Shown one piece after another: positions 8,302 to 23,324 of a stretch of DNA of 23,324 bases. Positions within the stretch are counted from its first letter, which is position 1. Each line of letters opens with the position of its first letter. The position numbers were made by a program, and so were the translations under genes. The DNA lies in IMG/VR virus record IMGVR_UViG_3300010160_000230, positions 1 through 23,324 of that record; one strand, given 5' to 3'. The notes beneath the pieces are model-generated. The model was not told the DNA's origin and did not search any database. It saw only the letters and a list, made by a program, of their open reading frames with translations. The DNA is from a virus.

Positions 8302-10196
8302 TACTTCTTTTTGTATTTAGCTTTAGCAGGTTCTTCATCAGGATTTATACGTTCAGGTCTTTTGAAAGGATTTTTTTCTCTGGTTTTTTCCTTTTCTTTT
8401 TCTTTGGTTTTTTCCTTTTCTTTAGTTCCAGGGTTTTTCATTGATTCTAACATTGAGTCCATAATTCTTTTTCTTAAAGAATACTGAGAATTATCGGAAT
8501 AATCAACACCTTTCATAAAAGGTTCGTCAACTTCATTATTAGCCTCATTTCTATTAAAAACACCACGACCACCACAAGAGTTACAATTCGAATTTCTTCC
8601 ATTACAAACTGGACACTCCATATAATCTTCATCATAATGACGCATATAGTCTATTGATTCTTCAGTACCATAACCATAATCACCATATTCATCATATCTA
8701 GCTTTAGCAGGTTCTTCATCAGGATTTATACGTTCAGGTCTTTTGAAAGGATTTTTTTCTCTAGTTTTTTCCTTTTCTTTTTCTTTGGTTTTTTCCTTTT
8801 CTTTAGTTCCAGGGTTTTTCATCTCTAAATAATCCATGTAATCTTCATCGTGACGATACATATAATCTTCTTCTTCAGTTTCACCATTAGCAATCATATC
8901 TAATTCTTTGATATCAGTTTTCAATGTATCAATTTCTTCCTCATCATAAAAAATTGGGTCCCCCACATTTTCAATAGGAAAATGTTCAGGAATATCATTA
9001 ATGTCTATATTGTTTGAAATATATAAATCATACCCACCTTCAACTTTCTCTAATTCTCCAAAAGGACCTTGATTTGGTAAACCATGTGACATATAGTCAA
9101 CCCCATCTTCATCATCCAATATTAAATCAAACTTTTCATCACCTCTCATAACTTCAATTGGTTCAGTTTCATCGCCACCAATTCCGTTATTCATACCAGA
9201 AATAATTTCTTCTTTTTCTTCTTCTGTTAATTCATCCCAAGAAGTCATTTTTTCATTGGAACCCATATAATCTATCGAGTCGTATTCTTGATAAGATTGT
9301 CTGTTTCTTCCTCTGCCCATGAAATCAGATTCTTCATCGGAACTTTTGTTTTTCCCTTTTTTAATTGACCTGATAATATCTCTTTTATCATTAGAATCCA
9401 TGTTCTCTAGGTCTAAAGCAGAAATAACACTTTTGGCAACCCATTTCATGGTATCAGAAGCTAAATCTTTAGTATCTCTGATTTTTTGACCTAACTTACC
9501 CGTCATTCGTTGGATATCTTTAATAGGATCATCCTCTAAATCATAATCTTCATCATCTTCATCGAATTCTTCGGTATCTTCTTCTTCGGTATCTTCCTCA
9601 CCATCAAAATCAAGTTCTTCTTCTGTACCTTCTTCACCTTCTTCTGTACCTTCCCCACCTTCTTCTGTATCTTCTTCTTCCATATCTTCCTCACCACCAA
9701 AATCAAATTCTTCCCCACCTTCTTCTGTATCTTCCTCACCACCAAAATCAAATTCTTCTTCTGTACCTTCTTCTTCAGTTTCACCAGAATCATCACCAAA
9801 ATCAGTTTCTTCTTCAGGTGCTGGTGTACTTTTCTTTTTCTTAGATTTCAACACAAACCTTTTTTCTGTTATAGCATCCGGTGAAAGCATGTTGTTATTT
9901 TCCTGAATACCATAAGATCTGTTAAAATCTTCAAACATGATATTAAGTCTTCTACTAGCCTCTTCATACGATTGGTATTGATTTTTTGTTTTATTCCCCA
10001 AACCACCAATATATTCATAATTGATACCGTCGGTAGATTCTTTAATAAAGTATTTTCTATTTTCTCTTACAATACCGTAAATTTTACCACTAGGTGATTT
10101 TTTTCTTAATTCAACAGTGGAATTAGTTGTTTGTTCGTTAATAGGTTTTTTAATGCCCATTAAATCTATCATTCTTTTTAAGCTTTTGTTTGTCAT
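8301..10196 (-). CDS. Acidic repeat protein with DnaJ-type zinc-finger motif, 631 aa
   Basis: Unknown function. Order of features: an N-terminal segment of about 100 residues (MTNKSLKRMIDLMGI...), a highly acidic Glu/Asp/Thr/Gly repeat tract (about 122-220), a long acidic low-complexity middle with recurring (I/V)DYM or EDYM motifs, two near-identical 41-residue Lys/Glu-rich blocks (about 458-499 and 585-626), and between them CPVCNG plus CNSCGGRG (about 527-545), a four-cysteine site resembling half of a DnaJ zinc finger. It is likely largely disordered. Repeats are recent at DNA level. Scaffold- or assembly-type roles are conceivable given the position upstream of packaging genes, but unproven. 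Confidence 0.8.
   Translation of the reverse strand: MTNKSLKRMIDLMGIKKPINEQTTNSTVELRKKSPSGKIYGIVRENRKYFIKESTDGINYEYIGGLGNKTKNQYQSYEEASRRLNIMFEDFNRSYGIQENNNMLSPDAITEKRFVLKSKKKKSTPAPEEETDFGDDSGETEEEGTEEEFDFGGEEDTEEGGEEFDFGGEEDMEEEDTEEGGEGTEEGEEGTEEELDFDGEEDTEEEDTEEFDEDDEDYDLEDDPIKDIQRMTGKLGQKIRDTKDLASDTMKWVAKSVISALDLENMDSNDKRDIIRSIKKGKNKSSDEESDFMGRGRNRQSYQEYDSIDYMGSNEKMTSWDELTEEEKEEIISGMNNGIGGDETEPIEVMRGDEKFDLILDDEDGVDYMSHGLPNQGPFGELEKVEGGYDLYISNNIDINDIPEHFPIENVGDPIFYDEEEIDTLKTDIKELDMIANGETEEEDYMYRHDEDYMDYLEMKNPGTKEKEKTKEKEKEKTREKNPFKRPERINPDEEPAKARYDEYGDYGYGTEESIDYMRHYDEDYMECPVCNGRNSNCNSCGGRGVFNRNEANNEVDEPFMKGVDYSDNSQYSLRKRIMDSMLESMKNPGTKEKEKTKEKEKEKTREKNPFKRPERINPDEEPAKAKYKKK
8318..8441 (-). 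repeat. Direct repeat copy A (124 bp), C-terminal block
   Basis: Matches 8699-8822 at 123 of 124 positions, with a single difference at 8382/8763 that is a synonymous Thr codon change. It encodes the MKNPGTKEKEK...EEPAKA block at the very C-terminus of the 631-aa protein. Confidence 0.95.
8699..8822 (-). repeat. Direct repeat copy B (124 bp), internal block
   Basis: Second copy, offset by 381 bp (127 codons) so the frame is kept. Its near identity suggests recent duplication or ongoing gene conversion inside the 631-aa gene. Confidence 0.95.
9568..9780 (-). repeat. Imperfect tandem repeat encoding the acidic tract
   Basis: Repeated words such as ttcttctgtatcttc and tcaccaccaaaatcaaattc recur several times. 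They encode alternating EEDTEEGGE and FDFGGEED units. Prone to slippage and length variation. Confidence 0.8.
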
Positions 10197-10217
10197 GTTT
10201 TTATATTTTATTTAATA

Positions 10218-10520
10218 TTATCTAATCGAAAAGGTTCCTTTTGCGTTTCCAGTGTCATTAGAAAGAGGGTTTTCCCAGAATCCAGTAGTTCCTGAAGTTG
10301 CTCCAAATTTTTTCCTGCCAATTAAGTAAACATCACCAGATGCACTTATTTGTGAAGCACTACTAATACCAACAGGTACCGTTATTGGACCACCAGCACC
10401 AGGTGATACGGCGGTTCCATTTATGGTTGCTGTAGCTCCGGCGGCTACCATGACACCAACGTACCAATAATTACTAAAATTGGAACCACTGACTGTGTGT
10501 ATTACATCTCCTTGTATCAT
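10218..10520 (-). CDS. Small Gly/Ala/Ser-rich, probably beta-structured protein
   Basis: 100 aa, MIQGDVIHTVSGSN... rich in Gly, Ala, Ser, Thr and Val, with few charged residues and no TM helix or signal peptide. The alternating pattern (VGVMVAAGATATINGTAV, GDVYLIGRKK) suggests an all-beta fold. Its base composition looks less AT-rich than its neighbours. It has its own GATATTTATA element at 10534-10543, so it may be strongly expressed. The composition is typical of small virion decoration or fibre-associated proteins, but I recognise no family; the structural role is inference. Confidence 0.78.
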   Translation of the reverse strand: MIQGDVIHTVSGSNFSNYWYVGVMVAAGATATINGTAVSPGAGGPITVPVGISSASQISASGDVYLIGRKKFGATSGTTGFWENPLSNDTGNAKGTFSIR

Positions 10521-11721: not shown

Positions 11722-12407
11722 CCCCCACCATTTTCCTTAGTTCCAGTTGCGTATTTAATGCCCATTATAGTACCGACAATTGAAAAAGCGTTGGTTAACA
11801 AAATACTAAACATATTTGACCAGGTTGAACCTATAATTTGAGTATCTTGCTTTGTATATAAAGCCATCATATACATAAGAGTGGTGATAACTCCAGCACT
11901 TAAAATCACCCAAATAGCCACTTTCACAATAATGGATGCCAATTCATTTTGTGTTTTTTTCTGTAACAAATCTAAATCGTTTTCAGCATTCTTTTTTGCC
12001 GATTCTGCCGTTATTCTAGCTTCTTCAGATTTAATCATTTCATTTTGAAGCTCAATCTGTATTTTTTCGTTTTCTTTTTTCCATTCTATTAATTCACGAT
12101 TCTGATTTTCAATCTGTAACTTTTGGTTTTCAGCCTCTTTTAATGTTGTTTGAAGTTCTTCCATTATTTTTTGGTTGGCTTCATTTAAATCGGAAAGTTC
12201 TTTATTTTGTTGTTGAACTTGTTTAGTGACATCTAAACGTTTTTTTCTTAACTCATTATCTTTTTGTTTACAGGTTTTTAAATACTCTTGAAAATCAACA
12301 TCGTCTTCACCATCAATAAGTTTAGTGATATTACCTTCTAAACCTACACCTTTTTTCCCTAAAAGGTCTATTAAGGCCTTTCTAGTAACTTTTTCTAGTT
12401 TTATCAT
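11718..12407 (-). CDS. Coiled-coil membrane protein coupled to the two-component system
   Basis: 229 aa, no known family. A short N-terminal domain (MIKLEKVTRKALIDLLGKKG..., 1-44) precedes a long coiled coil (about 45-157, rich in Gln, Glu, Lys and Asn). Two TM helices follow at about 158-183 (IIVKVAIWVILSAGVITTLM) and 199-219, with a Gly-rich tail, giving a cytoplasmic rod anchored in the membrane. Its ATG shares a base with the receiver gene's stop (TAATG at 12405-12409), so it should be made together with the response regulator. As the receiver has no output domain, this protein is an attractive candidate for the output partner or effector, for example acting on the membrane. That is inference from linkage. 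Confidence 0.82.
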   Translation of the reverse strand: MIKLEKVTRKALIDLLGKKGVGLEGNITKLIDGEDDVDFQEYLKTCKQKDNELRKKRLDVTKQVQQQNKELSDLNEANQKIMEELQTTLKEAENQKLQIENQNRELIEWKKENEKIQIELQNEMIKSEEARITAESAKKNAENDLDLLQKKTQNELASIIVKVAIWVILSAGVITTLMYMMALYTKQDTQIIGSTWSNMFSILLTNAFSIVGTIMGIKYATGTKENGGG

Positions 12408-12844
12408 TATTTATAAATTTTAAACGGTGATGTTCTATTTTTATAACCTTCATAGTCTTTTCTAAACTCCTCCAACCTAGGTTCAATATCATCTGATTTT
12501 ATAATCCAGAATTGAGCACCCGCTTGAACCGCTTTTACCTGTTCTTCGGATTCATTAGATGAAGAAATAATTCCTATGATAACATGATTACCGTATTGAA
12601 AATTAATTCTTCTAACTAGTTCTATCCCATCGAAGGAAGATCCAATAATATTTAAATCTATAAATACACATTCAGGTTTCTCATCAACATTTTTGCCTTC
12701 ATACCATTTTTTAAACATTTTTTCTGCATCATCCGCACTATTCACAGATTTTAAGGACAAACTAATATCCAATAAAGAGCAAGCGTCTTCAAAAACTAAA
12801 TGAAATAAATTTTCATCATCGACCAATAAAATAGAATCTATCAT
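12407..12844 (-). CDS. Stand-alone response regulator receiver (CheY-like)
   Basis: 145 aa, a single REC domain. Conserved residues: acidic pair D9-D10 (ILLVDDEN), phosphoacceptor D63 in CVFIDLNIIGSSFDGIEL, Ser at the end of beta 4 (GIISSSN, about 94-96), and Lys116 in FWIIKSDD. The phosphorylation site is therefore complete. Only about 20 residues follow the domain, so there is no DNA-binding output; signalling must go through a protein partner. It lies 7 nt downstream of the histidine kinase stop and overlaps the membrane protein start by one base. The likely phosphodonor is the adjacent kinase. It is similar in organisation to CheY/Rcp1-type single-domain regulators. Confidence 0.93.
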   Translation of the reverse strand: MIDSILLVDDENLFHLVFEDACSLLDISLSLKSVNSADDAEKMFKKWYEGKNVDEKPECVFIDLNIIGSSFDGIELVRRINFQYGNHVIIGIISSSNESEEQVKAVQAGAQFWIIKSDDIEPRLEEFRKDYEGYKNRTSPFKIYK

Positions 12845-12851
12845 AATGTTT

Positions 12852-14606
12852 TTATTTAAATTTGATTTTTATTTTAGTACCTATTTCATTTTTTTCACAG
12901 GTAACACTAAATTTATGTTCTTTAAGGATTGCCAAACAAATACTCAACCCCAAACCAGAACCAGTTTCATTCTGATATTTTTTTCTTATGTAAGGTTCAG
13001 ATAGTTTATTAAAATCTTCTTGTGATAATCCTCTGCCGTTATCTTGAATGATCATCATATCGTCTTCCATAAATATTTTAACAAATTTTGTATCACTATC
13101 ATTATATTTTAAACCATTTCTGATTAAATTATCTATAGCTGTACAAAATAAAGATTCGTTAACATCGATTGTTATCAAATCACTAATGATTACTTGTTGT
13201 CTATAAGATGTCATTAATAAATACTCGTTTAAAATTATTTTGAGGTCACAGTTTGTTTTTTCAAGGACAACGTCTTTTTTAACTAAATTTGTGAATTCAT
13301 AAACACCTTTATAAACTTTTTGGGTATGTTGTAACCCTTCTTTAATCATTTTTAAGGGTGATTCTAATTTTAATTCCTTAATAACGTTAGGTTTTAATCG
13401 TCTTTCTAAAGAAGTAACACCTCTTGGTATATAAATATTGATACCTGAATGCATATCATGTCTTAAAATTTTTGCTGCATGTTCTAGATATGTGTTTTTC
13501 TTTTCTATTTCTTTATTGGTTTTTATGATATCGGTAATATCTTGACGGATAGATGTAAAACCCTCTAACTTACCGTTTTCATCGAAGATGGCTCGAATAT
13601 AAGTATCAACATAATACAGTGAACCGTCTTTAGATTTATTAGTGACAACATCATTCCAAATTTCACCTTTTAAAACTTTTTTATACATATCGGCCCAATA
13701 TTTTTTTGTTTGTTGACCAGAATTAACGATTTTATGGTTTTTACCGATAAGTTCTTCTAATGAATACCCAGAAACTTCTATAAATTTTTCATTTACATAA
13801 ACTAACTTTCCTTTATCGTCTGTAGCGGATATCAAAGTTGCTTTATCGATAAAATCCTCACTTTCTTTTATTTTTTTTAATAAATTATTGGTGTTTTTAA
13901 TTGAATACGTAAAAGAGTAAAGAGAGGATAACATTTGTGCGAAATTTATTTCCGCGTTATTCCATTCTCGACGTTTTAGACTTTCAATACAAATGACACC
14001 AATGACCTCACCTTTATACATAATTGGAATATCTAACATAGAATTAATACCTAAAGGTTTTAAATAGTTTTCAGTAAAACAAGAAGTGGCTTTATGACCC
14101 AAAGCGTCATTTGCGACAATTATTGGGTTTGTTTTTAATGTATCGAAATATGGTTTACAATCTTTTTCAAACAATTCAAAACCTTGATACCAATTTTTTT
14201 CGGAATTAATGTAAAGTTGTTGACAAACAATAGAATCTTTTGTTTTACCATATAACCAAATAGAACATCTATCCGTATCAATGGATTCGGTGACTTCTTT
14301 GGTTAATAATTTGGTCACTTTATTTATACCACCTTCATAGAATATTGGGTTGTGTGATTGTTCTATTACTTTTTCATTTAATTTTTTTGCGTACTTACCC
14401 AATTCAAGACTTTTTTTAATTTTTTGATTGTATTCTTGAACCAAAGACCAGAAAATAACTGAAAAAGATAAAAAACAAAAATATTCAACACCACGAGTTA
14501 TGGGGGTTGGTGACATCACACCTAAAAATAATGTTGTTTTAATAATAAAAAATGTGGACATTACAAATACCACAAAACCTAATTTTATTTTAAAACTTAA
14601 TCCCAT
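12852..14606 (-). CDS. Membrane sensor histidine kinase (2 TM, GAF, PAS, HATPase)
   Basis: 584 aa. Two TM helices (about 9-31 and 39-59) with a very short outside loop, then a GAF domain (about 95-235; MLDIPIMYKGEVIGVICIES), a PAS domain (about 255-365; GKLVYVNEKFIEVSGYSLEELIG in two parts, ending GFTSIRQDITD), an H-box with phosphoacceptor H383 (ILRHDMHSGIN), N-box (TAIDNLIRNGLKYND, 489-503), G1 (DNGRG, 522-526) and G2 (GSGLGLS). All kinase motifs are intact. The small periplasmic loop suggests cytoplasmic or membrane signals sensed via GAF/PAS. The ATG at 14606 shares a base with the stop of the cell-wall enzyme gene (TAATG), and the receiver follows after 7 nt. A complete histidine kinase inside a phage late region is unusual. 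Confidence 0.94.
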   Translation of the reverse strand: MGLSFKIKLGFVVFVMSTFFIIKTTLFLGVMSPTPITRGVEYFCFLSFSVIFWSLVQEYNQKIKKSLELGKYAKKLNEKVIEQSHNPIFYEGGINKVTKLLTKEVTESIDTDRCSIWLYGKTKDSIVCQQLYINSEKNWYQGFELFEKDCKPYFDTLKTNPIIVANDALGHKATSCFTENYLKPLGINSMLDIPIMYKGEVIGVICIESLKRREWNNAEINFAQMLSSLYSFTYSIKNTNNLLKKIKESEDFIDKATLISATDDKGKLVYVNEKFIEVSGYSLEELIGKNHKIVNSGQQTKKYWADMYKKVLKGEIWNDVVTNKSKDGSLYYVDTYIRAIFDENGKLEGFTSIRQDITDIIKTNKEIEKKNTYLEHAAKILRHDMHSGINIYIPRGVTSLERRLKPNVIKELKLESPLKMIKEGLQHTQKVYKGVYEFTNLVKKDVVLEKTNCDLKIILNEYLLMTSYRQQVIISDLITIDVNESLFCTAIDNLIRNGLKYNDSDTKFVKIFMEDDMMIIQDNGRGLSQEDFNKLSEPYIRKKYQNETGSGLGLSICLAILKEHKFSVTCEKNEIGTKIKIKFK

Positions 14607-15411: not shown

Positions 15412-16209
15412 TCATTCGTAAATTTTAACGTAATTCACAAAAAATTCGGAATACTGCTCTGTTAGGTTAGACTCAAAACCGTGACGAACTCCGTTGTTTA
15501 AAATCACCATAAACTTTTTATCACGGAACCATTTTAACACATCTTCTGATGTTGTTTGTCTAACCAGATAACCATCATAATAAATTTTAATAAAATCTTT
15601 AGTTACCCAACAAGATAATTTAAGGTTTTCAAGTGGGTTTATTGGGTGACTTCTAGCACCAGAGGTTTCTTTATTTTCGGTAGTATTAAAATGTAAGTTA
15701 GATTCTAATCGAAATTTATAATCAGAATTTAAATCCGAATACGCTTCTATTACATCGATTTCTGGGGGCCATGTATCATAACACCCTAACCATACAGCTG
15801 GCCAAAGACCCACACCATATGGAAGCTGGATCTCAAACTCATAAAAACCATACCCAAAGGTTTTATATGTTGTAATTAAACCAACTGAATAAGGAATATC
15901 ATATGTTTTGTTGTCACCAGTAAACTTTTTGGGAGAATAAATTTGATTTAACACTAATTTATTGTTTCTAACTGAAACAGAATCAAACCCGTAATATTGG
16001 TTTGGAAAGTCAGGATGAAATAGTCCCCAGGGTTGACCAATTCTCCAATTGGAAGGATCTAACGAAGAAAATTCATCATCAAACACCAAAGACATTTTAC
16101 TTTTATCTGGTTCCTCATCCCCAAATTTCGTAACACCCAACAAAGATCTTATATATGATTTTATGTATAAAAAACTATTTACGACTTTATCTGTTAACGA
16201 TTCTGTCAT
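15412..16209 (-). CDS. Glycoside hydrolase family 16 enzyme
   Basis: 265 aa. Typical GH16 order: LVFDDEFSSLDPSNWRIG (41-58), YGFYEFEIQLPYGVGLWPAVWL (in two parts, 120-141) and the active site WPPEIDVIEAYS (147-158) with nucleophile E150, Asp152 and acid/base E155. GH16 enzymes cleave beta-1,3/1,4-glucans or galactans (laminarin, agar, carrageenan). The N-terminal 38 residues are not a clean signal peptide, so the protein probably stays in the cell until lysis or is virion-associated. Its ATG shares a base with the stop of the holin-like gene (TAATG). A role in degrading host capsule or algal polysaccharide at exit or entry is likely; substrate cannot be told from sequence. Confidence 0.92.
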   Translation of the reverse strand: MTESLTDKVVNSFLYIKSYIRSLLGVTKFGDEEPDKSKMSLVFDDEFSSLDPSNWRIGQPWGLFHPDFPNQYYGFDSVSVRNNKLVLNQIYSPKKFTGDNKTYDIPYSVGLITTYKTFGYGFYEFEIQLPYGVGLWPAVWLGCYDTWPPEIDVIEAYSDLNSDYKFRLESNLHFNTTENKETSGARSHPINPLENLKLSCWVTKDFIKIYYDGYLVRQTTSEDVLKWFRDKKFMVILNNGVRHGFESNLTEQYSEFFVNYVKIYE

Positions 16210-16609: not shown

Positions 16610-16822
16610 CTAATTAGATAAAGGTGCTTTAATACTTGGGTGTGATTGATAGTCTGGTGGTAGTTCCATCCATTCTTTTGATGAATAATTAAATATTGAA
16701 CCATCATTAGATTCTAATATAAATCTATGACTCGCTTTGAAACTTTCAATATCTGTCCATTCTGACAATTCAATATCTTTAATGATGTCACCAACTGGAT
16801 TTACTAATTTTAATCTAATCAT
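16610..16822 (-). CDS. Hypothetical protein, 70 aa
   Basis: MIRLKLVNPVGDIIKDIELS... a small soluble protein with a beta-rich start and Pro-rich end (ELPPDYQSHPSIKAPLSN). No family recognised. It lies 39 nt after thyX, starting with ATG at 16822 and preceded by GATATAAAG, which only loosely resembles the shared element. Confidence 0.65.
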   Translation of the reverse strand: MIRLKLVNPVGDIIKDIELSEWTDIESFKASHRFILESNDGSIFNYSSKEWMELPPDYQSHPSIKAPLSN

Positions 16823-16861: not shown

Positions 16862-17506
16862 TTACAAATCAAATGACTTTATTGTTAATTCAAAAGGATT
16901 TCCTTCAATATTTTTAACTAAATCCAACATCATCTGTGCGAGTTCTCTTGTTTCTTGTTGGGCGTCAGGTTTAATTCTTAAATGAAAAAGATGTATAAAT
17001 GATAATAAACTACCAGTCCAAATAAAACTTGTATTCAAATTGAGAGGTAAAATTGTTCTTGCTTGCTCTTTTGACACTCCAAGTTCAATTAATCTTTGAT
17101 ATGCGGTTTTACAATATCCAATAATGCCTGCTTCAATCTCAGATGCTGCTAATTGTTCTTCAATCGCCCCATCACTACCTTGTTTTGAGGATTTTGATTG
17201 TTTCCTCCATTCATCTATTGTTGAATAGGTGTCGCTAAAATCAACATATCTACCACTAATTGAATTAGCGCTTAATCCAACTTGGTGTTTGAATAATTGT
17301 CTCTCAACATAAATGGGACAAGTTATCCTGAACTGAAGTTGAGGATGTCTAAACGGAGATGTATGTCCGTGTTTAACCAAATAATTTATTAGTTTACCAT
17401 CTTTTTCTTCAAGTGTTAATACTTCTTTACCATAACTAACTCTTGCAACATTAACTATCATTAAATCATTCCCAAAATGTGATAGTAGTTCTACTTTATT
17501 ACTCAT
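16862..17506 (-). CDS. thyX: Flavin-dependent thymidylate synthase ThyX
   Basis: 214 aa, normal length for ThyX, which makes dTMP from dUMP using FAD and methylene-THF. HGHTSPFRH (46-54) is the conserved FAD/dUMP segment, YVERQLFKHQVGLSANSIS (in region 66-84) then GRYVDF is the signature region, and the C-terminal half is helical (LPLNLNTSFIWTGSLLSF, typical of ThyX). The usual RHR triplet reads KHQ here, and the signature seems one residue longer than the canonical RHRxxSxNxxSxRY. It supplies thymidylate for phage DNA synthesis. The start overlaps the end of the GIY-YIG gene by 8 nt (ATGAGTAA). Confidence 0.93.
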   Translation of the reverse strand: MSNKVELLSHFGNDLMIVNVARVSYGKEVLTLEEKDGKLINYLVKHGHTSPFRHPQLQFRITCPIYVERQLFKHQVGLSANSISGRYVDFSDTYSTIDEWRKQSKSSKQGSDGAIEEQLAASEIEAGIIGYCKTAYQRLIELGVSKEQARTILPLNLNTSFIWTGSLLSFIHLFHLRIKPDAQQETRELAQMMLDLVKNIEGNPFELTIKSFDL

Positions 17507-18284
17507 TTATTATAATTTTATATTTTTTAGAAATTATTTCACTGGCTTTGTTTTTAATTAACCTTCTTAACGAAGAATTACTAAGTGGGGAAATATTTGA
17601 TAATTTATTTATTGAATCCTCCTCCCAAATTTCATTTGTTAACAAATCAATAAGTTTACATTTTTTTGCGTTTTTTGTTGTTTTTCCTTTCCAATACCCC
17701 AATTTTTCTATTCTAGGGTCATCTTTTTTAGTTAAACCACTGTTCCATTTTTTAGTATTTAAAAGATTTATCATTCTTTTTTTCTTATGTTCTTCATCTT
17801 CTTTTTTTCCAAACATAGGGTTCTTTTCACCAATTTTACCGGTTCTTATTTTTTCAATCGTTTCTTTAGTATGTTTTTTACCTTTTATTTTTTCTATTCT
17901 TTTTTCAATAACTTCTTTTGTTTGTTTAAATCCTTTTTTCAATTTACTCATTCTGTTTTTTGCGTCTTCTGTATGTTTATACCCAAAAGAAGAATTAGAA
18001 TTGTGTGAGTTATTAAAACCTATTTCTCTATTATAACATTTTGTCATATCCATCCAAAATTGTTCTCTGTCTTTTAACTGATAACTTTCACAAATTTCAA
18101 TTATTTCAAAAGCAAATTCATCTTTTCCATATAAATCCCATGCATTTTGTAAATGAGGATTTCTGTGTGTTTTTTTATCTAAGGTATTCATATGTGTGTT
18201 CCATCTTCTTTCTATATTATTTGAAGAACCAATATAAATTTTATTATTTTTTTTACATATTATTTTATAAATCCCTGTTTTCAT
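17499..18284 (-). CDS. GIY-YIG homing endonuclease with NUMOD3-type repeats
   Basis: 261 aa from ATG at 18284 (MKTGIYKIICKKNNKIYIGS). Catalytic domain: GIY (4-6), YIG (17-19), Arg in IERRW (26-27) and Glu74 in DREQFWMD. Then DNA-binding repeats of the NUMOD3 kind: GYKHTEDAKNRMSKLKKG (101-118) and GKKHTKETIEKI...GEKNPMFGKK (135-161), and a C-terminal helix-turn-helix-like region. An in-frame ATG 54 nt further up (18338) is rejected because the GATATTTATA element would fall inside the gene and the extra residues are not GIY-YIG-like. Free-standing mobile gene whose last 8 nt overlap thyX; the likely homing site is in or near thyX. Confidence 0.92.
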   Translation of the reverse strand: MKTGIYKIICKKNNKIYIGSSNNIERRWNTHMNTLDKKTHRNPHLQNAWDLYGKDEFAFEIIEICESYQLKDREQFWMDMTKCYNREIGFNNSHNSNSSFGYKHTEDAKNRMSKLKKGFKQTKEVIEKRIEKIKGKKHTKETIEKIRTGKIGEKNPMFGKKEDEEHKKKRMINLLNTKKWNSGLTKKDDPRIEKLGYWKGKTTKNAKKCKLIDLLTNEIWEEDSINKLSNISPLSNSSLRRLIKNKASEIISKKYKIIINE

Positions 18285-18354: not shown

Positions 18355-18609
18355 TTATTTCCCATTTGGTAATTTTTCGTTTTCTATTTGAATTATTTTA
18401 TCTATTACTCGTTTAGGTATTATCTTCATTGGAATTGGGTCACCCCCTGTTGTAGTCCAAGTATCAATATAGTAATGTCCATTAAATTTGTCTATGTATA
18501 TTGTATGTACTACTGATTCACCCATAAGGTTCATAGATGTTTCCCCAACTTTTAAAAGTTCTATTTCTCCTAAAAATGGGTCTGTGTAGGTTTTATCTAG
18601 TTTGTTCAT
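18355..18609 (-). CDS. Small array protein, DPFLGEIEL family, 84 aa
   Basis: MNKLDKTYTDPFLGEIELLK... Last gene of the array. It shares the block DPFLGEIEL-x-x-VG with the next gene upstream (86 aa), so the two are paralogues with diverged remainders. No known domain. Overlaps the upstream gene's stop by 4 nt (ATGA), indicating coupled translation. Confidence 0.72.
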   Translation of the reverse strand: MNKLDKTYTDPFLGEIELLKVGETSMNLMGESVVHTIYIDKFNGHYYIDTWTTTGGDPIPMKIIPKRVIDKIIQIENEKLPNGK

Positions 18610-18866
18610 ATTTCTATTTTGGTTAATGCTTCGTAAATTCCCTTAATCATAAACATTTCTTCCTTTCTTATCCACTTCATTTCACCTGAAGTATTTTTGC
18701 ACCAAATTCCACAATCTATACCTTTACCTTTATATTTTTCAGATTCCATCACATAGTAAACATTTTCATCGTTAAAAGCACTCATAATAACTCTACCAAC
18801 TTCTTTAAGTTCTATTTCACCTAAGAATGGGTCTTTATGTTTTATTATTTTATCTAAGTTGTTCAT
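18606..18866 (-). CDS. Small array protein, DPFLGEIEL family, 86 aa
   Basis: MNNLDKIIKHKDPFLGEIELKEVG... Paralogue of the 84-aa gene. Two cysteines occur in DCGIWCKNT (mid-protein). Function unknown. Overlaps its upstream neighbour by 17 nt, where that gene's end EQLR* and this gene's start MNNLDK are two readings of the same bases. Confidence 0.72.
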   Translation of the reverse strand: MNNLDKIIKHKDPFLGEIELKEVGRVIMSAFNDENVYYVMESEKYKGKGIDCGIWCKNTSGEMKWIRKEEMFMIKGIYEALTKIEI

Positions 18867-19131
18867 CTTTATTAATTGTTATTGTTTTGTAAAATTTTGA
18901 ATTAATAGGTTTACTAGCGTATGCTTCAAAATTCTTTAATGTTTTAGGTTTCCAAAAAAAGAATTTTATTTTTAACCAAAAATTAATCAATTTATTACTA
19001 TGCCATACCGTCACTCCATTAATGGTTGTTTTAACTGTCTTTGTCGTGTATGGAGCATAAATATAACCTGACTTACCTTCTTTGAATTCTTCGGGTGTGA
19101 GAAATGGTATTTCTTTATCTAAGTTGTTCAT
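18850..19131 (-). CDS. Small array protein, 93 aa, basic/aromatic
   Basis: MNNLDKEIPFLTPEEFKEGK... with a basic aromatic stretch INFWLKIKFFFWKPKTLK that may be membrane-associated. No family recognised. It starts and ends in the same junction type: its start MNNLDK overlaps the previous gene's end NEQLR* by 17 nt, and its own end DEQLR* overlaps the next start by 17 nt. Confidence 0.7.
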   Translation of the reverse strand: MNNLDKEIPFLTPEEFKEGKSGYIYAPYTTKTVKTTINGVTVWHSNKLINFWLKIKFFFWKPKTLKNFEAYASKPINSKFYKTITINKDEQLR

Positions 19132-19483
19132 TTATTGCCTCCTTTACTTGAATTGTATCAATATATGTTTTTAATAAGTTTGCCGCTCGTAGATTAGGTC
19201 TACCTCTCTCTACTGTAAATTTATATTTTTCGAAAAAATATTTCAGATTTTCAATATCTGATAATTCGGCACCAGGTAATGAAACTTCAGCATCTTTGTT
19301 ATCAAAAATCCAATCCTTTTGGTAAGGCAGGTCTTTATTTTCATCCTCTTTTAATAAATCTTTTAGCCGTTTAATTTCAGCGATTACATCATCACCTAAT
19401 TCGATTTTAGACATCACTGATAAGTTTATTACTTGAGATTCTAATACTTTGATTAGCTCGTCTTTTGCTTCTTCTTTATTCAT
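19115..19483 (-). CDS. Small array protein, 122 aa, helical
   Basis: MNKEEAKDELIKVLESQVIN... a mostly helical, charged sequence with no recognised domain. The start shares the ATGAATAA junction used across the array (8-nt overlap), while the end (AINEQLR*) uses the second junction type. It therefore marks the border between the two junction classes. Confidence 0.72.
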   Translation of the reverse strand: MNKEEAKDELIKVLESQVINLSVMSKIELGDDVIAEIKRLKDLLKEDENKDLPYQKDWIFDNKDAEVSLPGAELSDIENLKYFFEKYKFTVERGRPNLRAANLLKTYIDTIQVKEAINEQLR

Positions 19484-19841
19484 AACTTGTTATTGTTTTA
19501 TTGTTGTATGTTATTGTGATTAATTTGGTTGGGATGTTTAACCCGACATAATCAACTTTGAGTAAATCATCAAATGACTTGGCCTCACCTTCTTTCATAT
19601 AATGTTTACCATAATACTCCATTCGCTCTACTGTACTCAACTCCCTCTCCTCAATCTTTAATCCCCGCCTTTCAGAGAACTCTGTATCGGTTTTGCATTT
19701 GTTGATGAATCCACCTCTAGTTAATATCCCTTCCCCATTTAATATCGGTTTACCACTAACAGATGGAACCGCATTATCATAAAACCATTTAGTATATTCT
19801 TGACCAACCAACTCAATAAGACCTTCTTGTTCTTTATTCAT
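19476..19841 (-). CDS. MNKEQ-family cassette protein, 121 aa
   Basis: Canonical member of the array family: N-terminal MNKEQEGLIELVG, core KTDTEFSERRGLKIEERELS in mid-protein, C-terminal NIPTKLITITYNNKTITSYE. The stretches between these conserved blocks differ strongly from those of the paralogues. No known domain, TM helix or signal peptide. 8-nt overlaps (ATGAATAA) with the genes on both sides. Confidence 0.78.
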   Translation of the reverse strand: MNKEQEGLIELVGQEYTKWFYDNAVPSVSGKPILNGEGILTRGGFINKCKTDTEFSERRGLKIEERELSTVERMEYYGKHYMKEGEAKSFDDLLKVDYVGLNIPTKLITITYNNKTITSYE

Positions 19842-20229
19842 AACTTTCTATTGTTTTATCGTTGTATGTTATTGTGATTGCTCGTGTAGGACAATTTGGT
19901 CTCATACCAAAAAAAATATCAGAACCAGAATGTTCAAACCACATATTATTATCTTCAGAATAATAATAATAAGAATTACCATTTTTTTTCCACTTATTAT
20001 TTGGTTTAATATGTTTATAATAATATTCTACTATCTCATCATCACTCAACTCTCTTTCCTCAATCTTTAATCCCCAATATTCCCTAAAATCTTTATTGAA
20101 ATTAGATTCTTTCATGAATTCAGATTTTGTCATAACTTTTCTAACATAACCCTCAGGTCTATTATTTTCAATGGATTTAACGAAATTCTCATACGCCTCA
20201 TCTAATAATTCTTCTTGTTCTTTATTCAT
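19834..20229 (-). CDS. MNKEQ-family cassette protein, 131 aa
   Basis: MNKEQEELLDEAYENFVKSI at the N-terminus, core FREYWGLKIEERELSDDEIV, end CPTRAITITYNDKTIESYE. The longest canonical copy; its variable segment includes a Tyr/Asn/Lys-rich insert (KPNNKWKKNGNSYYYYSEDN). Overlaps both neighbours by 8 nt. Function unknown. Confidence 0.78.
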   Translation of the reverse strand: MNKEQEELLDEAYENFVKSIENNRPEGYVRKVMTKSEFMKESNFNKDFREYWGLKIEERELSDDEIVEYYYKHIKPNNKWKKNGNSYYYYSEDNNMWFEHSGSDIFFGMRPNCPTRAITITYNDKTIESYE

Positions 20230-20428
20230 TGCTTACTTTTTTAAATAATGGGAATCTACCGTGAGGGACTTGCCATTCTTTTCCTGTTTCAATATTTTTT
20301 AATAGGTGTTTATCATCACCTAAATTTTTTATATATTTCATTTCCGTTTGACTCCATTTACCAATAAACTCATCACCCTCAGATAATTCACATAATTTAA
20401 CGGCATTTTCTTCGTAATTATTTTTCAT
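20222..20428 (-). CDS. Orphan array protein, 68 aa
   Basis: MKNNYEENAVKLCELSEGDE... lacks the family core. Parts such as GDEFIGKWSQTEMKYIKN and LLKNIETGKEWQVPHG look like a small beta-barrel. Inserted between two canonical cassettes; its start uses the shared GTTATGA junction in a shifted position (11-nt overlap) and its end (SNE*) overlaps the next start by 8 nt. Confidence 0.7.
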   Translation of the reverse strand: MKNNYEENAVKLCELSEGDEFIGKWSQTEMKYIKNLGDDKHLLKNIETGKEWQVPHGRFPLFKKVSNE

Positions 20429-20771
20429 AACTCGTTATTGTTTTATCGTTGTATGTTATTGTGATTACTCTGCGTGGGATATTAAAATCATCTAAAAAGC
20501 GATGTGAAGGTAATGCCATTCTATCCCAAGGAAATTGTTTATCTTTTGGATAATAATCAAAACGGATACGCCACCTTTCTTCTTCACTTAACTCTCGTTC
20601 CTCAATCTTTAATCCCCACCTTTCAGAGAACTCTGTATCGGATTTACATTTGTCGATGAACATTTCTTTTGGTGATAATGTTCCATGAAATCCATGTCCC
20701 ATCATTATTTCAGTTTTGTTCTTATAATTCTCATACGCCTCATCCAATAATTCTTGTTGTTCTTTATTCAT
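20418..20771 (-). CDS. MNKEQ-family cassette protein, 117 aa
   Basis: MNKEQQELLDEAYENYKNKT, then a variable part, core KSDTEFSERWGLKIEERELS, second variable part (RIRFDYYPKDKQFPWDRMAL), end NIPRRVITITYNDKTITSYEK. One extra residue before the stop because the next gene starts MKNN (GAAAAATAA). The start overlaps the upstream 52-aa gene's TGA by 4 nt. Confidence 0.78.
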   Translation of the reverse strand: MNKEQQELLDEAYENYKNKTEIMMGHGFHGTLSPKEMFIDKCKSDTEFSERWGLKIEERELSEEERWRIRFDYYPKDKQFPWDRMALPSHRFLDDFNIPRRVITITYNDKTITSYEK

Positions 20772-20926
20772 AACTTTCTATTGTTTTTTATAAAAATAGG
20801 TTTGCCTTCCACATCAAATTCTTTGAATGATATAGGTAATTTCATTTCTAAAACTTTAATATAAGGGTAAAACATATATCCTCTATCAACATTACCTTTT
20901 TTACCAATTAAAATTTTATCATTCAT
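20768..20926 (-). CDS. Small orphan array protein, 52 aa
   Basis: ATG at 20926 (MNDKILIGKKGNVDRGYMFY) to TGA at 20768, ending IFIKNNRKL. The last bases, AAACAATAGAAAGTTATGA, are the usual junction DNA, normally read as TIESYE, but here in another frame so that it stops at TGA within ATGA. It overlaps the upstream gene by 8 nt (ATGAATGA) and the next by 4 nt. Without it there would be a 147-nt gap in an otherwise gapless array, which supports it as real. Confidence 0.72.
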   Translation of the reverse strand: MNDKILIGKKGNVDRGYMFYPYIKVLEMKLPISFKEFDVEGKPIFIKNNRKL

Positions 20927-21200
20927 AACTTTCTATTGTTTTATAACTATCAAATTTTAACCATACCTCATCTTCATTTAGATTTAGTATTGGGTAACAA
21001 TTAATTAAAGTACCTGATTCACATATTTGTTTATATTCAATATCTTCAGTGTAATCTGATTTTGGCATACTAAACCTATTATGTTTTTTTTGCCATTTAT
21101 AAAAAAATATCACATCTTGTTCTTCAGATAGAGGTATAATAAATTTTCTTTCATCATTATATCTACCCTCAAACCATTTTTCATTAATTTTTATTTTCAT
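20919..21200 (-). CDS. Array protein, 93 aa, hybrid ends
   Basis: MKIKINEKWFEGRYNDERKF... no GLKIEERELS core. Only the last residues, YKTIESYE, are shared with the MNKEQ family, so an unrelated body has the standard 3' junction. The start (MKIKIN) overlaps the upstream gene's end ESYENKN* by 17 nt. Function unknown. Confidence 0.72.
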   Translation of the reverse strand: MKIKINEKWFEGRYNDERKFIIPLSEEQDVIFFYKWQKKHNRFSMPKSDYTEDIEYKQICESGTLINCYPILNLNEDEVWLKFDSYKTIESYE

Positions 21201-21546
21201 AACTTTCTATTATAGTTTTTTTGTATGTTATTGTGATTAGTTTGGTTGGGATTTTATAAGGTGTGTTATCTACATTAGTAGGAACCATCATATTAGATAA
21301 AAGACCGTATTTTTCTTTCCATATTGGGAGAGCTATTTTATACCTTTCTTCCAAACTCAACTCTCGTTCTTCAACCTTTAATCCCCACTTTTCACTGAAC
21401 TCTGTATCGGTTTTGATTAATCTGATAAATTCTTCTTTGTTTGGAACATAGTATCCAGTGTAATCTTCTTTACCTGAATGTTCATTATACCACTTTTCAA
21501 AGTTCTCATAAGCCTCATCCAATAATTCTTGTTGTTCTTTATTCAT
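21184..21546 (-). CDS. MNKEQ-family cassette protein, 120 aa
   Basis: MNKEQQELLDEAYENFEKWY, core KTDTEFSEKWGLKVEERELS, end KIPTKLITITYKKTIIESYE plus NKN. The three-residue tail arises because the following gene starts with MKIKIN instead of MNKEQ, so the stop lies further on. Overlaps 8 nt upstream and 17 nt downstream. Confidence 0.78.
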   Translation of the reverse strand: MNKEQQELLDEAYENFEKWYNEHSGKEDYTGYYVPNKEEFIRLIKTDTEFSEKWGLKVEERELSLEERYKIALPIWKEKYGLLSNMMVPTNVDNTPYKIPTKLITITYKKTIIESYENKN

Positions 21547-21736
21547 AACTTTCTAATTTAATCATTGCAAAATATTCAAAATCTGATATAGCGAATTCTT
21601 CTGTTCTACCAGGTGTAGAATTTAGGTATTCAACAATCACCTTATCTTTTGTTACATCTTTAACAATCATTGATACAGGTGCCAATGACCCTAAATCTAA
21701 ATTGAATTCTTTCCCAATTAGTTCTTCTTTATTCAT
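21539..21736 (-). CDS. Array protein, 65 aa, hybrid ends
   Basis: Starts MNKEELIGKEFNLDLGSLAP and ends FAMIKLESYE, but the body is unrelated to the family and lacks the core. The middle (VSMIVKDVTKDKVIVEYL) is beta-rich, like a small Sm/SH3-type barrel. Overlaps both neighbours by 8 nt (ATGAATAA). Confidence 0.72.
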   Translation of the reverse strand: MNKEELIGKEFNLDLGSLAPVSMIVKDVTKDKVIVEYLNSTPGRTEEFAISDFEYFAMIKLESYE

Positions 21737-21935
21737 CTGTTCCTAAGTTTTTTAATCCTTTAATAGCCTCCTTATTAAACTCTAAGGCAAAATCTCGCTC
21801 AATCATATTGATAAGAGCCTGTTCAGCATCTAACTTTCCATTGGTAGTTGCCATTTCAATACAGTCATCATCAGTTTTTTCACCCCAAAACATCATATTT
21901 CGGAGTAATACATTTCCATCAATATTAATTTTCAT
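21729..21935 (-). CDS. Orphan array protein, 68 aa, helical
   Basis: MKINIDGNVLLRNMMFWGEK... helical and acidic, ending KGLKNLGTDE*. Shares no domain with the family; only its junctions fit: start in an 11-nt overlap (ESYEN*/MKIN), end in an 8-nt ATGAATAA overlap. Function unknown. Confidence 0.7.
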   Translation of the reverse strand: MKINIDGNVLLRNMMFWGEKTDDDCIEMATTNGKLDAEQALINMIERDFALEFNKEAIKGLKNLGTDE

Positions 21936-22479
21936 AACTTTCTATTGTTTTATCGTTGTAATTAATACCTATACGAGTATTCCCATCCTCAACTACCGTG
22001 TATATAGTAACACCCCATTGTTTGGCAAAGTCTGGGTTTGTTATTACCCTTCCGATGAATTCTTCTTGTGTTAAATAGAAAAAAGGTTGTTCGGCTTTAC
22101 CCTCTAAATAAGCATTTATTTGTCCTCTTTTATATTCTTTTGATGTAGGCTTAACATGGTCTAATATTGGATAACCCCAGCATTGGTCGTTATGCCCATT
22201 CGCTAATTCTTCGCCATTAAAATTATTCGGGTCAACTTCAAATTGTTTACACCAATTTTCATAAGCATCACCCAATAATCCTTGTTGTTCTTTATTCATA
22301 ACTTTATATTGGTTTTCTATTTCTTCCCATTCTTTATGCTCATTATCACCAACTAACTTATAATGTTTACCATCTTTTTCCCAAATACAATTCCAATTTT
22401 CTTTTATTTGTGGATTATCGGGGTATGCTCTACCTGATTGGTCATAATTCAGATTCCCTTTTTTGATTTTGTTATTCAT
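21925..22479 (-). CDS. Fused cassette protein, 184 aa
   Basis: Two cassettes read as one frame. Residues 1-60 (MNNKIKKGNLNYDQSG...EEIENQYKV) are an unrelated small unit; residue 61 is the Met of a family start (MNKEQQGLLGDAYENW, ATG at 22299). At this junction the usual GTTATGAATAAAG is read as V-M-N-K, so there is no stop. The second part keeps LTQEEFIGRVITNPDFAKQWG but lacks the EERELS core, and ends GINYNDKTIESYEN. The ATG at 22299 may also be used alone, giving a 124-residue protein. Confidence 0.75.
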   Translation of the reverse strand: MNNKIKKGNLNYDQSGRAYPDNPQIKENWNCIWEKDGKHYKLVGDNEHKEWEEIENQYKVMNKEQQGLLGDAYENWCKQFEVDPNNFNGEELANGHNDQCWGYPILDHVKPTSKEYKRGQINAYLEGKAEQPFFYLTQEEFIGRVITNPDFAKQWGVTIYTVVEDGNTRIGINYNDKTIESYEN

Positions 22480-22792
22480 AACTTTCTATTGTTTTATCGT
22501 TATATGTTATTGTGATTAGTTTGGTTGGGATACCCTCCTTATCTAATACATCGTCTACATCATCTATTTGATACTTAGTCTCTGCTAATTCATGTCTTTC
22601 GTCCCAAGTCAACTCCCGTTCTTCAATCTTTAATCCCCACGTTTTAGAGAAGTCTTTATCGGTTTTTATTTCTTCAATAAATTCTTCTTGAGATAAACAT
22701 TTATCTAATTCTTCGTGGATATAGCCTTCAACAAAAGCAATACGATAATTCTTATACACCTCATCCAATAATTCTTGTTGTTCTTTATTCAT
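22472..22792 (-). CDS. MNKEQ-family cassette protein, 106 aa
   Basis: The shortest canonical copy and close to the family minimum: MNKEQQELLDEVYKNYRIAF, LSQEEFIEEIKTDKDFSKTW, GLKIEERELTWDERHELAET, GIPTKLITITYNDKTIESYE. Useful as the reference member. Helical N-terminal two thirds, beta-like C-terminal strand. 8-nt overlaps on both sides. Confidence 0.8.
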   Translation of the reverse strand: MNKEQQELLDEVYKNYRIAFVEGYIHEELDKCLSQEEFIEEIKTDKDFSKTWGLKIEERELTWDERHELAETKYQIDDVDDVLDKEGIPTKLITITYNDKTIESYE

Positions 22793-23156
22793 AACTTTCT
22801 AATTTAGTATCGTTGTATGTTATTATGATTAGTTTGGTTGGAACATTATGTTTATCGCACATATAATTAGCAAAATCAAATTCTTCCATATTAGGTGTTA
22901 GGTCGGCTATCTTCCATCTTTCCATCATATCTAACTCTCGTTCCTCAATCTGTAATCTCCACTTTTCAGAGAACTCAGAATTAATTTTTATCATTTGAAT
23001 AAATGAATCTTTTGTTAAATGTTGAACCCCTGAGATTAATGGAGCATCACCCCATTTAGAATACTCACCATAATGATTCTTTTCATTAATTTTATGTGTG
23101 AGTCTTTTATAATTCTTATACGCCTCATCCAATAATTCATGTTGTTCCTTATTCAT
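22785..23156 (-). CDS. MNKEQ-family cassette protein, 123 aa
   Basis: MNKEQHELLDEAYKNYKRLT, variable insert (GEYSKWGDAPLISGVQHL), core FSEKWRLQIEERELDMMERW, end NVPTKLIIITYNDTKLESYE. More diverged core than the others (LQIEEREL). 8-nt overlaps on both sides. Function unknown. Confidence 0.78.
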   Translation of the reverse strand: MNKEQHELLDEAYKNYKRLTHKINEKNHYGEYSKWGDAPLISGVQHLTKDSFIQMIKINSEFSEKWRLQIEERELDMMERWKIADLTPNMEEFDFANYMCDKHNVPTKLIIITYNDTKLESYE

Positions 23157-23324
23157 AACTTTCTATTGTTTTATCGTTGTATGTTATTGTGATTAGTCGG
23201 GTTGGAATGTTTGCATCATCCAATTGTTTAATAGATGGTTTTGCTAATTTTCTACAATCAAATCCGTATTGTTCTTTAATATCATGTCTCTCTTCCAAAC
23301 TCAACTCTCGTTCTTCAATCTTTA
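23149..23324 (-). CDS. MNKEQ-family cassette protein, 5' part beyond window
   Basis: The last 58 codons of another canonical copy: it enters the window inside the core (KIEERELSLEERHDI) and ends NIPTRLITITYNDKTIESYE with TAA overlapping the next ATG by 8 nt. Shows that the array continues to the right of the window. Confidence 0.78.
   Translation of the reverse strand, partial: KIEERELSLEERHDIKEQYGFDCRKLAKPSIKQLDDANIPTRLITITYNDKTIESYE

Follow-up and report, generated by a model that had tools for sequence, protein, structure and literature searches.

A candidate recombination-fed array of small genes related to thymidylate synthase in a phage genome fragment

The overlapping array and its junctions

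The 23,324-bp fragment IMGVR_UViG_3300010160_000230 of the IMG/VR database, analysed as a whole and hereafter called the window, belongs to a myovirus-like phage with a T4-type terminase and an intein-bearing portal-like gene. From position 23324 to position 18355 it carries 17 open reading frames (ORFs) on the minus strand that follow one another without gaps, and the array runs past the end of the fragment. Eight of the 17 ORFs are members of a repeated family, which we designate FAM; the other genes will be called non-family cassettes. The 16 overlaps between neighbours measure 8 nucleotides (nt) in nine cases, 17 nt in three, 11 nt in two and 4 nt in two, and the 8-nt overlap has the sequence ATGAATAA eight times and ATGAATGA once. 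The original prediction, made from the window alone, had described a gapless array of at least 17 such genes with the 8-nt overlap as the commonest, and this description held. It had also counted seven paralogues; the repeated family is real, but comprises eight members (with lower coordinates 23149, 22785, 22472, 21925, 21184, 20418, 19834 and 19476). For comparison we used related loci, labelled with L-numbers (for example L018), in which ORFs were called by a simple script. Overlaps of 8 nt were found at 131 of 372 distinct gene junctions in the arrays; outside the arrays, these contigs had 13 among 691.

At the junctions we identified a DNA element, J1 (AAAACAATAGAAAGTTATGAATAAAGAA), which serves as a gene end in all three reading frames. 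Its 17-nt core (ACAATAGAAAGTTATGA) is present in 12 copies in the window, where shuffling predicts 0.40. Related loci totalling about 1.18 Mb contain 287 copies, whereas first-order Markov shuffles of them gave 6-14. One copy in the window lies at 20768..20784 on the minus strand, and others start at 19480, 19838, 20425, 20923, 21197, 21543, 21932, 22476, 22789 and 23153. Among 194 distinct contexts in the related loci, J1 was read in the first frame, as KTIESYE and a stop with an 8-nt overlap, in 112; in the second, as NNRKL and a stop with a 4-nt overlap, in 12; and in the third, as KQ and a TAG stop followed by a 6-nt gap, in 26. The consensus is alike across the three frame groups and reaches past the core into the following gene. 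The 8-nt overlap had been attributed to a family end ESYE and a start MNKEQ read from the same bases. That arrangement does occur, but non-family genes use it as well (at 21736, 21546, 20926 and 19483), and the 52-residue cassette at 20768..20926 reads the same DNA in the second frame as NNRKL and a stop, with a 4-nt overlap. Since J1 provides a stop in any of the three frames together with the next ATG, gain, loss or reordering of cassettes would leave translation intact.

Two further junctions resemble the ends of thyA, the gene of the thymidylate synthase ThyA. J2 (ATGAACAACTTAGATAA) lies near the end of the array, at the gene starts 19131 and 18866, and resembles the thyA start of relatives (MNNLDK). 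J3 corresponds to the thyA 3' end. The small gene at 16610..16822 on the minus strand terminates in a ThyA-like C-terminus (YQSHPSIKAPLSN) and is 90% identical to genes of L011 and L051/L053; the L011 homologue sits downstream of thyA.

Closely related loci differed in their cassettes. L020 and L062 share 99.1% identity along 12.4 kb, and L062 has, relative to L020, gained three cassettes at J1, with J1 on both sides, and lost one FAM gene and one cassette through a hybrid FAM gene in which a FAM pair collapsed. L037 and L044 (97.6% identical) are collinear up to a FAM junction and carry different cassettes beyond it, and in L035 and L039 (96%) the cassettes differ at several places and the thyA loops differ too. 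The original prediction would have been refuted by an unchanging array among close relatives; this was checked, and none of these three pairs was static. The earlier proposal of a modular system that expands and shuffles is supported by these differences at junctions and by the combinatorial segments described below.

The cassettes of the window, all on the minus strand, also recur elsewhere; those with lower coordinates 21729, 21539, 20919, 19115 and 18355 are present in other phages, several of them with other neighbours. The 68-residue cassette at 21729..21935 has array homologues in L055, L079, L065, L080 and others, and the 65-residue cassette at 21539..21736, which ends in KLESYE, has homologues with other neighbours in L018, L062, L055 and L080. 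The 93-residue product of 20919..21200 ends in KTIESYE and has homologues in L018 and L046 (82%). For the 68-residue cassette at 20222..20428, a homologue was not found in the fetched loci. Parts of the 122-residue cassette at 19115..19483, whose end NEQLR lies on J2, are homologous to different genes of L022 and L053. The cassettes at 18850..19131 (93 residues, ending in DEQLR on J2) and 18606..18866 (86 residues) both start with the thyA-type MNNLDK. The last gene of the array, at 18355..18609 (84 residues), is 98% identical to array genes located directly before thyA in L035 and L039.

J1 might be nothing other than a strong signal for translation initiation and coupling, its conservation reflecting expression. 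An ATG does always follow J1 directly, with stop and start coupled. As a sole explanation we nevertheless find this unlikely, taking into account that the J1 sequence AGAAAGTT preceded none of 333 ordinary starts outside arrays, that the breakpoints of cassettes gained or lost between near-identical phages lie exactly at J1, and that blocks within genes, which are not starts, are conserved likewise. A role in expression and a role in recombination may both be true at once.

Relationship of the repeated family to thymidylate synthase

A seven-row profile of the family matched small genes and also proteins of about 350-480 residues, which are thymidylate synthases. A profile made from FAM alone hits ThyA as two separate pieces in the same order, with a best full-sequence E value of 5.8e-18. 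Positions 11-60 of the model correspond to ThyA residues ~87-140, the loop-1 region (GDAYKNY ... EEFINKIKTDDEFAKKWG), and positions 59-121 to residues ~210-290 (YGFQVYTRELSxEER ... IPTRAISLxWNQRS). FAM skips about 70 residues of the ThyA core (~140 to ~210), including the LPPCH segment, and is also devoid of the ThyA N-terminus and C-terminus. Without the catalytic PCH motif and the core that binds folate and deoxyuridine monophosphate (dUMP), a FAM protein corresponds to a fragment and not to an enzyme. All 22 loop-bearing ThyA rows match the Pfam family Thymidylat_synt (PF00303), whereas neither the FAM proteins nor any other part of the window matched PF00303 over the cut-off. Canonical ThyA of solved structure is without both inserts. 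These matches show the homology between FAM and ThyA. As to its direction, we infer that FAM arose from ThyA by deletion, which is the simplest reading because one of the core beta strands of ThyA forms part of the second piece.

The FAM protein of 22472-22792, whose structure the original prediction had proposed to model, gave an AlphaFold2 model with a predicted local distance difference test (pLDDT) score of 88.8 and the order helix-helix-helix-strand-helix-strand-strand, the last two strands forming a beta hairpin. A Foldseek search against the PDB returned nothing with an E value under 0.46. Against BFVD, three uncharacterised homologues from uncultured phages were followed by weak hits including two phage ThyA proteins, which lend weak support.

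A host-interaction or anti-defence function had been suggested for the array. Scans of the array proteins with Pfam, PHROG and PADLOC gave no convincing match, the PADLOC models matching none of ten array proteins, and the suggestion is left unsupported. Weak Pfam hits such as PET122, MORC2 and DUF1947, all below the cut-off, were regarded as noise. A search of solved structures with the family profile produced a single hit, ribosomal protein S20 (E value 1.1), which was dismissed.

Assortment and exchange of the variable segments

Each FAM protein has three conserved blocks, and the two variable segments between them, V1 and V2, sit at the positions of the ThyA loops. We examined how V1 and V2 are combined in 96 FAM and 20 ThyA sequences, after removal of genes at least 95% identical, counting identity of at least 60% as sharing and below 35% as unlike. 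Among the 116 sequences, 65 pairs were alike in V1 and 64 in V2, with only six alike in both, and 116 pairs shared one segment while the other was below 35%. There were 110 distinct V1-V2 combinations. Of the V1 families that were shared, 24 of 25 had several partners, as did 19 of 20 such V2 families. These counts are affected by the placement of the V1 and V2 boundaries, by the 60% and 35% cut-offs and by the removal of redundancy at 95%. Judged from these sequences, V1 and V2 assort independently within each small gene.

The FAM genes of the window, on the minus strand like the cassettes, illustrate this mosaicism. The V2 of 22785..23156 (123 residues) is 100% identical in L011, L018 and L046, where V1 is unrelated, and the V2 segments of 22472..22792 (106 residues) and 20418..20771 (117 residues) are identical to those of L009 and L056, respectively. 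In 21184..21546 (120 residues), V1 is 95% identical to loop 1 of the L039 ThyA and V2 is 97% identical to that of an L032 FAM gene. The V1 of 19476..19841 (121 residues) is 93% identical to that of L066, and V2 is unrelated. The family further includes 19834..20229 (131 residues) and 23149..23324, whose 5' end is cut by the contig end and whose terminus is ITITYNDKTIESYE. The gene at 21925..22479 is a fusion of a non-family cassette (MNNKIKKGNLNYDQ), found standalone in L066 and L037, with a C-terminal FAM part. The fusion is in frame as a result of a change of the J1 TAG to TAT, and a stop-less internal copy of J1 remains at 22296..22312. Residues 70-156 of its product are 80% identical to loop 1 of the L063 ThyA, and the gene and that thyA share 86.8% of their DNA sequence over 219 nt.

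Sharing between FAM and thyA was also observed within single contigs, where the two have 125 nt in common at 97.6% identity (L016, L017 and L061, which represent one phage lineage). In some ThyA proteins a module of the loop-2 type occupies a third site, and this module matches FAM segments (72.5% between L064 and L044). At the conserved blocks, DNA identity drops abruptly from 90-100% to background. The blocks are moreover fixed at synonymous codons that are rare in the genome: CTA (91%, against 11% genome-wide), ATC (94%, 15%), CGA (77%, 7%) and AAG (91%, 18%), with TTG and GAG also among the fixed codons. The loci used here were found with degenerate back-translated patterns, so that codon choice was not selected. 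Such fixation is as would be expected of recombining homology arms.

Plain tandem duplication of one small gene, with divergence of the copies and blocks kept by protein function, would account for adjacent copies that have three protein blocks in common. Of 65 pairs within the same group, however, two shared V1 and one shared V2, against 1.25% and 1.31% of cross pairs. Since the variable parts of two copies resemble each other no more when both come from one phage than when they come from different phages, the copies do not appear to stem from local duplication. Identical segments in other phages, the rare synonymous codons of the blocks and the retention of J1 even where it is read in other frames also speak against duplication, which we regard as highly improbable. 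A diversity-generating retroelement was considered and set aside, as whole segments, not single adenines, are replaced.

Loop replacement was also seen in cultured phages. Flavobacterium phages immuto 2-6A and immuto 3-5A, obtained on the same host from one mesocosm, have nearly identical ThyA proteins (5992-7263 of L189 and 6001-7272 of L190, respectively) in which one loop is wholly replaced. Loop swapping is therefore no assembly artefact. As for chimeric assembly of the arrays, the same structures recur in independent assemblies (L018/L019/L021 and L016/L017/L020/L061/L062). FAM was not found in immuto 2-6A or 3-5A. The two phages carry different small genes just downstream of thyA, and in immuto 3-5A, the gene that follows thyA ends with 25 nt repeated from the thyA 3' end.

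The thymidylate synthase locus and the proposed mechanism

We considered 50 non-redundant arrays whose downstream sequence extended for 4 kb or more; in 42 of them, a thymidylate synthase gene lay within 4 kb downstream. The enzyme was a loop-bearing ThyA, a compact ThyA of 276 residues or, in the window, ThyX. The window gene for ThyX (Pfam Thy1), at 16862..17506 on the minus strand, occupies the position of ThyA in relatives. Directly after the array, at 17499..18284 on the same strand, lies a free-standing homing-endonuclease gene (GIY-YIG and NUMOD3). In 12 of 21 contigs, including the window, a gene of the homing-endonuclease type interrupted or adjoined thy, and in five loci thyA is split inside loop 1 by one (L018 10675-12814, L036 10921-12960, L083 11407-13395, L060 and L076). 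In T4-type phages, homing endonucleases cause local co-conversion and can split genes of nucleotide metabolism (PMC2988022). The second half of the split thyA restarts with its own ATG, giving a putative ThyA encoded by a gene in pieces. In L020 (11632-11724) and L062 (12590-12682), a truncated 30-codon copy of the thyA start stands before an endonuclease gene that precedes the full thyA. In L009, a FAM pair (9676-10354) precedes a phosphoesterase-like gene with no adjoining thy gene, on a 102-kb contig without ThyA or ThyX over the cut-off. The derivation from ThyA, the loops held in common with thyA, the usual position of the array upstream of a thy gene and the three-frame DNA junction had all been missed in the original prediction.

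Taken together, our results point to a probable recombination-fed cassette array, usually at the thymidylate synthase locus, in which proteins with ThyA loops are built and exchanged via short homology arms. The small genes would have arisen from ThyA by joining of the loop-1 region to the beta-hairpin region with loop 2 and deletion of the catalytic core, and short, near-invariant DNA stretches would act as the arms. Through the junction arms (J1, J2 at the thyA start and J3 at the thyA 3' end), whole small genes could be gained, lost and reordered, and through the in-gene arms, the three conserved blocks, V1 and V2 could be swapped separately among small genes and with thyA. The engine would most likely be breaks made by homing endonucleases in or beside thy and repaired by phage recombination during coinfection. 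Least certain is the benefit: the small proteins may present varied loop segments of ThyA, the likeliest use being a reservoir from which ThyA and the small proteins change their surface loops.

Several observations weigh against this explanation. FAM arrays are known from metagenome contigs only. Loops of small genes matched the resident ThyA in only one of 32 pairs, so that instances of conversion into thyA inside a single genome are seldom seen, and which way exchange between thyA and the small genes runs can only be inferred. Four FAM contigs (fragments of 102-254 kb) yielded no thymidylate synthase match above the Pfam cut-offs, and one contig has FAM and thyA 37 kb apart; the link to ThyA is therefore not obligatory. 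An endonuclease gene beside thy was, by the means used, not seen in nine of the 21 contigs. Finally, a structure model of ThyA, built from the 22 rows, shows a secondary-structure order equal to that of FAM, but its confidence is low (65.8).

Could the arrays instead be a selfish, functionless build-up, in which endonuclease breaks at thy leave thyA scraps and passengers behind, the blocks being footprints and the proteins idle? Endonuclease genes in or beside thy at many loci would fit, as would incomplete copies of the thyA start and FAM tails that lack an ORF (L020 11632-11724; L011 9782). The ORFs, however, are intact and gapless, and the predicted FAM fold appears confident. Moreover, the ratio of nonsynonymous to synonymous substitution rates (dN/dS) had a median of 0.18 in non-family cassettes, with dN below dS in 210 of 218 pairs, and was 0.20 in V1 and 0.16 in V2, although choosing the pairs by amino-acid identity lowers this ratio. 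FAM-ThyA pairs with synonymous differences (pS) of about 0.50 and nonsynonymous differences (pN) of about 0.09 would not be expected without constraint. Cassettes and segments are, on these ratios, under purifying selection, and we consider a functionless build-up quite improbable.

The FAM proteins could also be binding partners or decoys, with loops that engage or divert a host factor recognising phage ThyA, or else ThyA itself, and with an arms race driving their variety. The loops have been retained with their scaffold while the catalytic part is gone, each segment is strongly constrained and many variants are present per genome. The rarity of matches to the resident ThyA fits decoys less well than it fits a reservoir, and the array persists beside ThyX in the window and beside compact ThyA in L029, L049, L055 and L081. 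A literature search turned up no defence system that recognises ThyA loops. We therefore view this as possible but somewhat doubtful. Since FAM persists in phages without a loop-bearing ThyA, the proteins probably have a role of their own. Extending the preferred explanation, that of a cassette array fed by recombination, one may tentatively suggest a dedicated viral diversification system, an expressed library of enzyme loops with frame-tolerant junctions. Surface loops of ThyA and of the small proteins would recombine continually, so that intracellular proteins, as opposed to receptor-binding ones, would vary combinatorially under selection from a host factor.

The array has features in common with several known systems. 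In Neisseria pilE/pilS and Borrelia vlsE, tandem partial copies in silent cassettes (minicassettes) recombine with a full-length gene, and there too the partial copies have conserved blocks and variable segments in common with the full gene. The copies described here differ in being intact, coupled ORFs with starts under purifying selection, apparently translatable; because they are intact genes, we do not file the array as a member of the silent-cassette class. In addition, the full gene is a viral metabolic enzyme, unrelated cassettes are interspersed, the pool is common to phages, and any conversion into the full gene was not caught in progress in the contigs analysed. In lambdoid and other mosaic phages, short conserved boundary DNA lies at gene borders where unrelated genes are exchanged. 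J1 is likewise short conserved border DNA at exchange points, but it spans overlapping stops and starts, works in three frames, is repeated many times per array and matches a family's coding end. Integron arrays consist of small genes, mostly unknown, that are gained, lost and reordered as units, as here, whereas the present cassettes are joined by overlaps of 4-17 nt and have short homology in common. No integrase was apparent among the window ORFs and no attC-like site was identified, in the absence of a systematic search with attC or integrase models. Within PF00303, FAM stands apart as two ThyA regions, including a core beta strand, without the catalytic cysteine region and without a match to the family model. 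Free-standing homing endonucleases of T4-type phages (PMC2988022; nrdA of Aeh1, I-TevI and td) offer parallels in the endonuclease genes, GIY-YIG among them, that interrupt or adjoin thy, in split thyA and in co-conversion that would move flanking DNA, but they have not been described as building arrays of target-gene fragments with independently assorting loops.

The family search proposed earlier recovered related metagenome loci and ThyA, but no FAM in 50,697 GenBank phage records; nor was any found in the 84,980 bacterial and archaeal genomes searched. No description of such an arrangement was found in a search of open-licence papers. Recombination of partial gene cassettes is nevertheless a known logic, resembling silent-cassette conversion, and it is the present setting for which we found no description. 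Known phage diversification mostly alters receptor-binding proteins; here the variation concerns loops of a nucleotide-synthesis enzyme and of small proteins derived from it, at two independent positions. If selection drives this variation, some component of the host would recognise or use the loops, pointing to a target of defence or regulation that has so far gone unnoticed. The junction, being frame-tolerant, indicates a way to insert genes into a fully overlapping operon with translation unbroken, and would also account for how a group of small orphan genes in phages arose. Part of the proposal is already open to testing in the cultured Flavobacterium phages that differ by one ThyA loop.

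Outside the array, three further features of the window were observed, all on the minus strand. The open-ended gene at 3-1346, beside the terminase and portal-like by position, contains an intein (Pfam Intein_splicing, E value 1.1e-12) and a sub-threshold HNH match. A GAF-PAS sensor histidine kinase adjoins a response-regulator receiver protein at 12407-14606, a combination that is unusual in phages. The gene at 15412-16209 encodes a protein of glycosyl hydrolase family 16 (E value 7e-9), which possibly acts on host surface polysaccharide.

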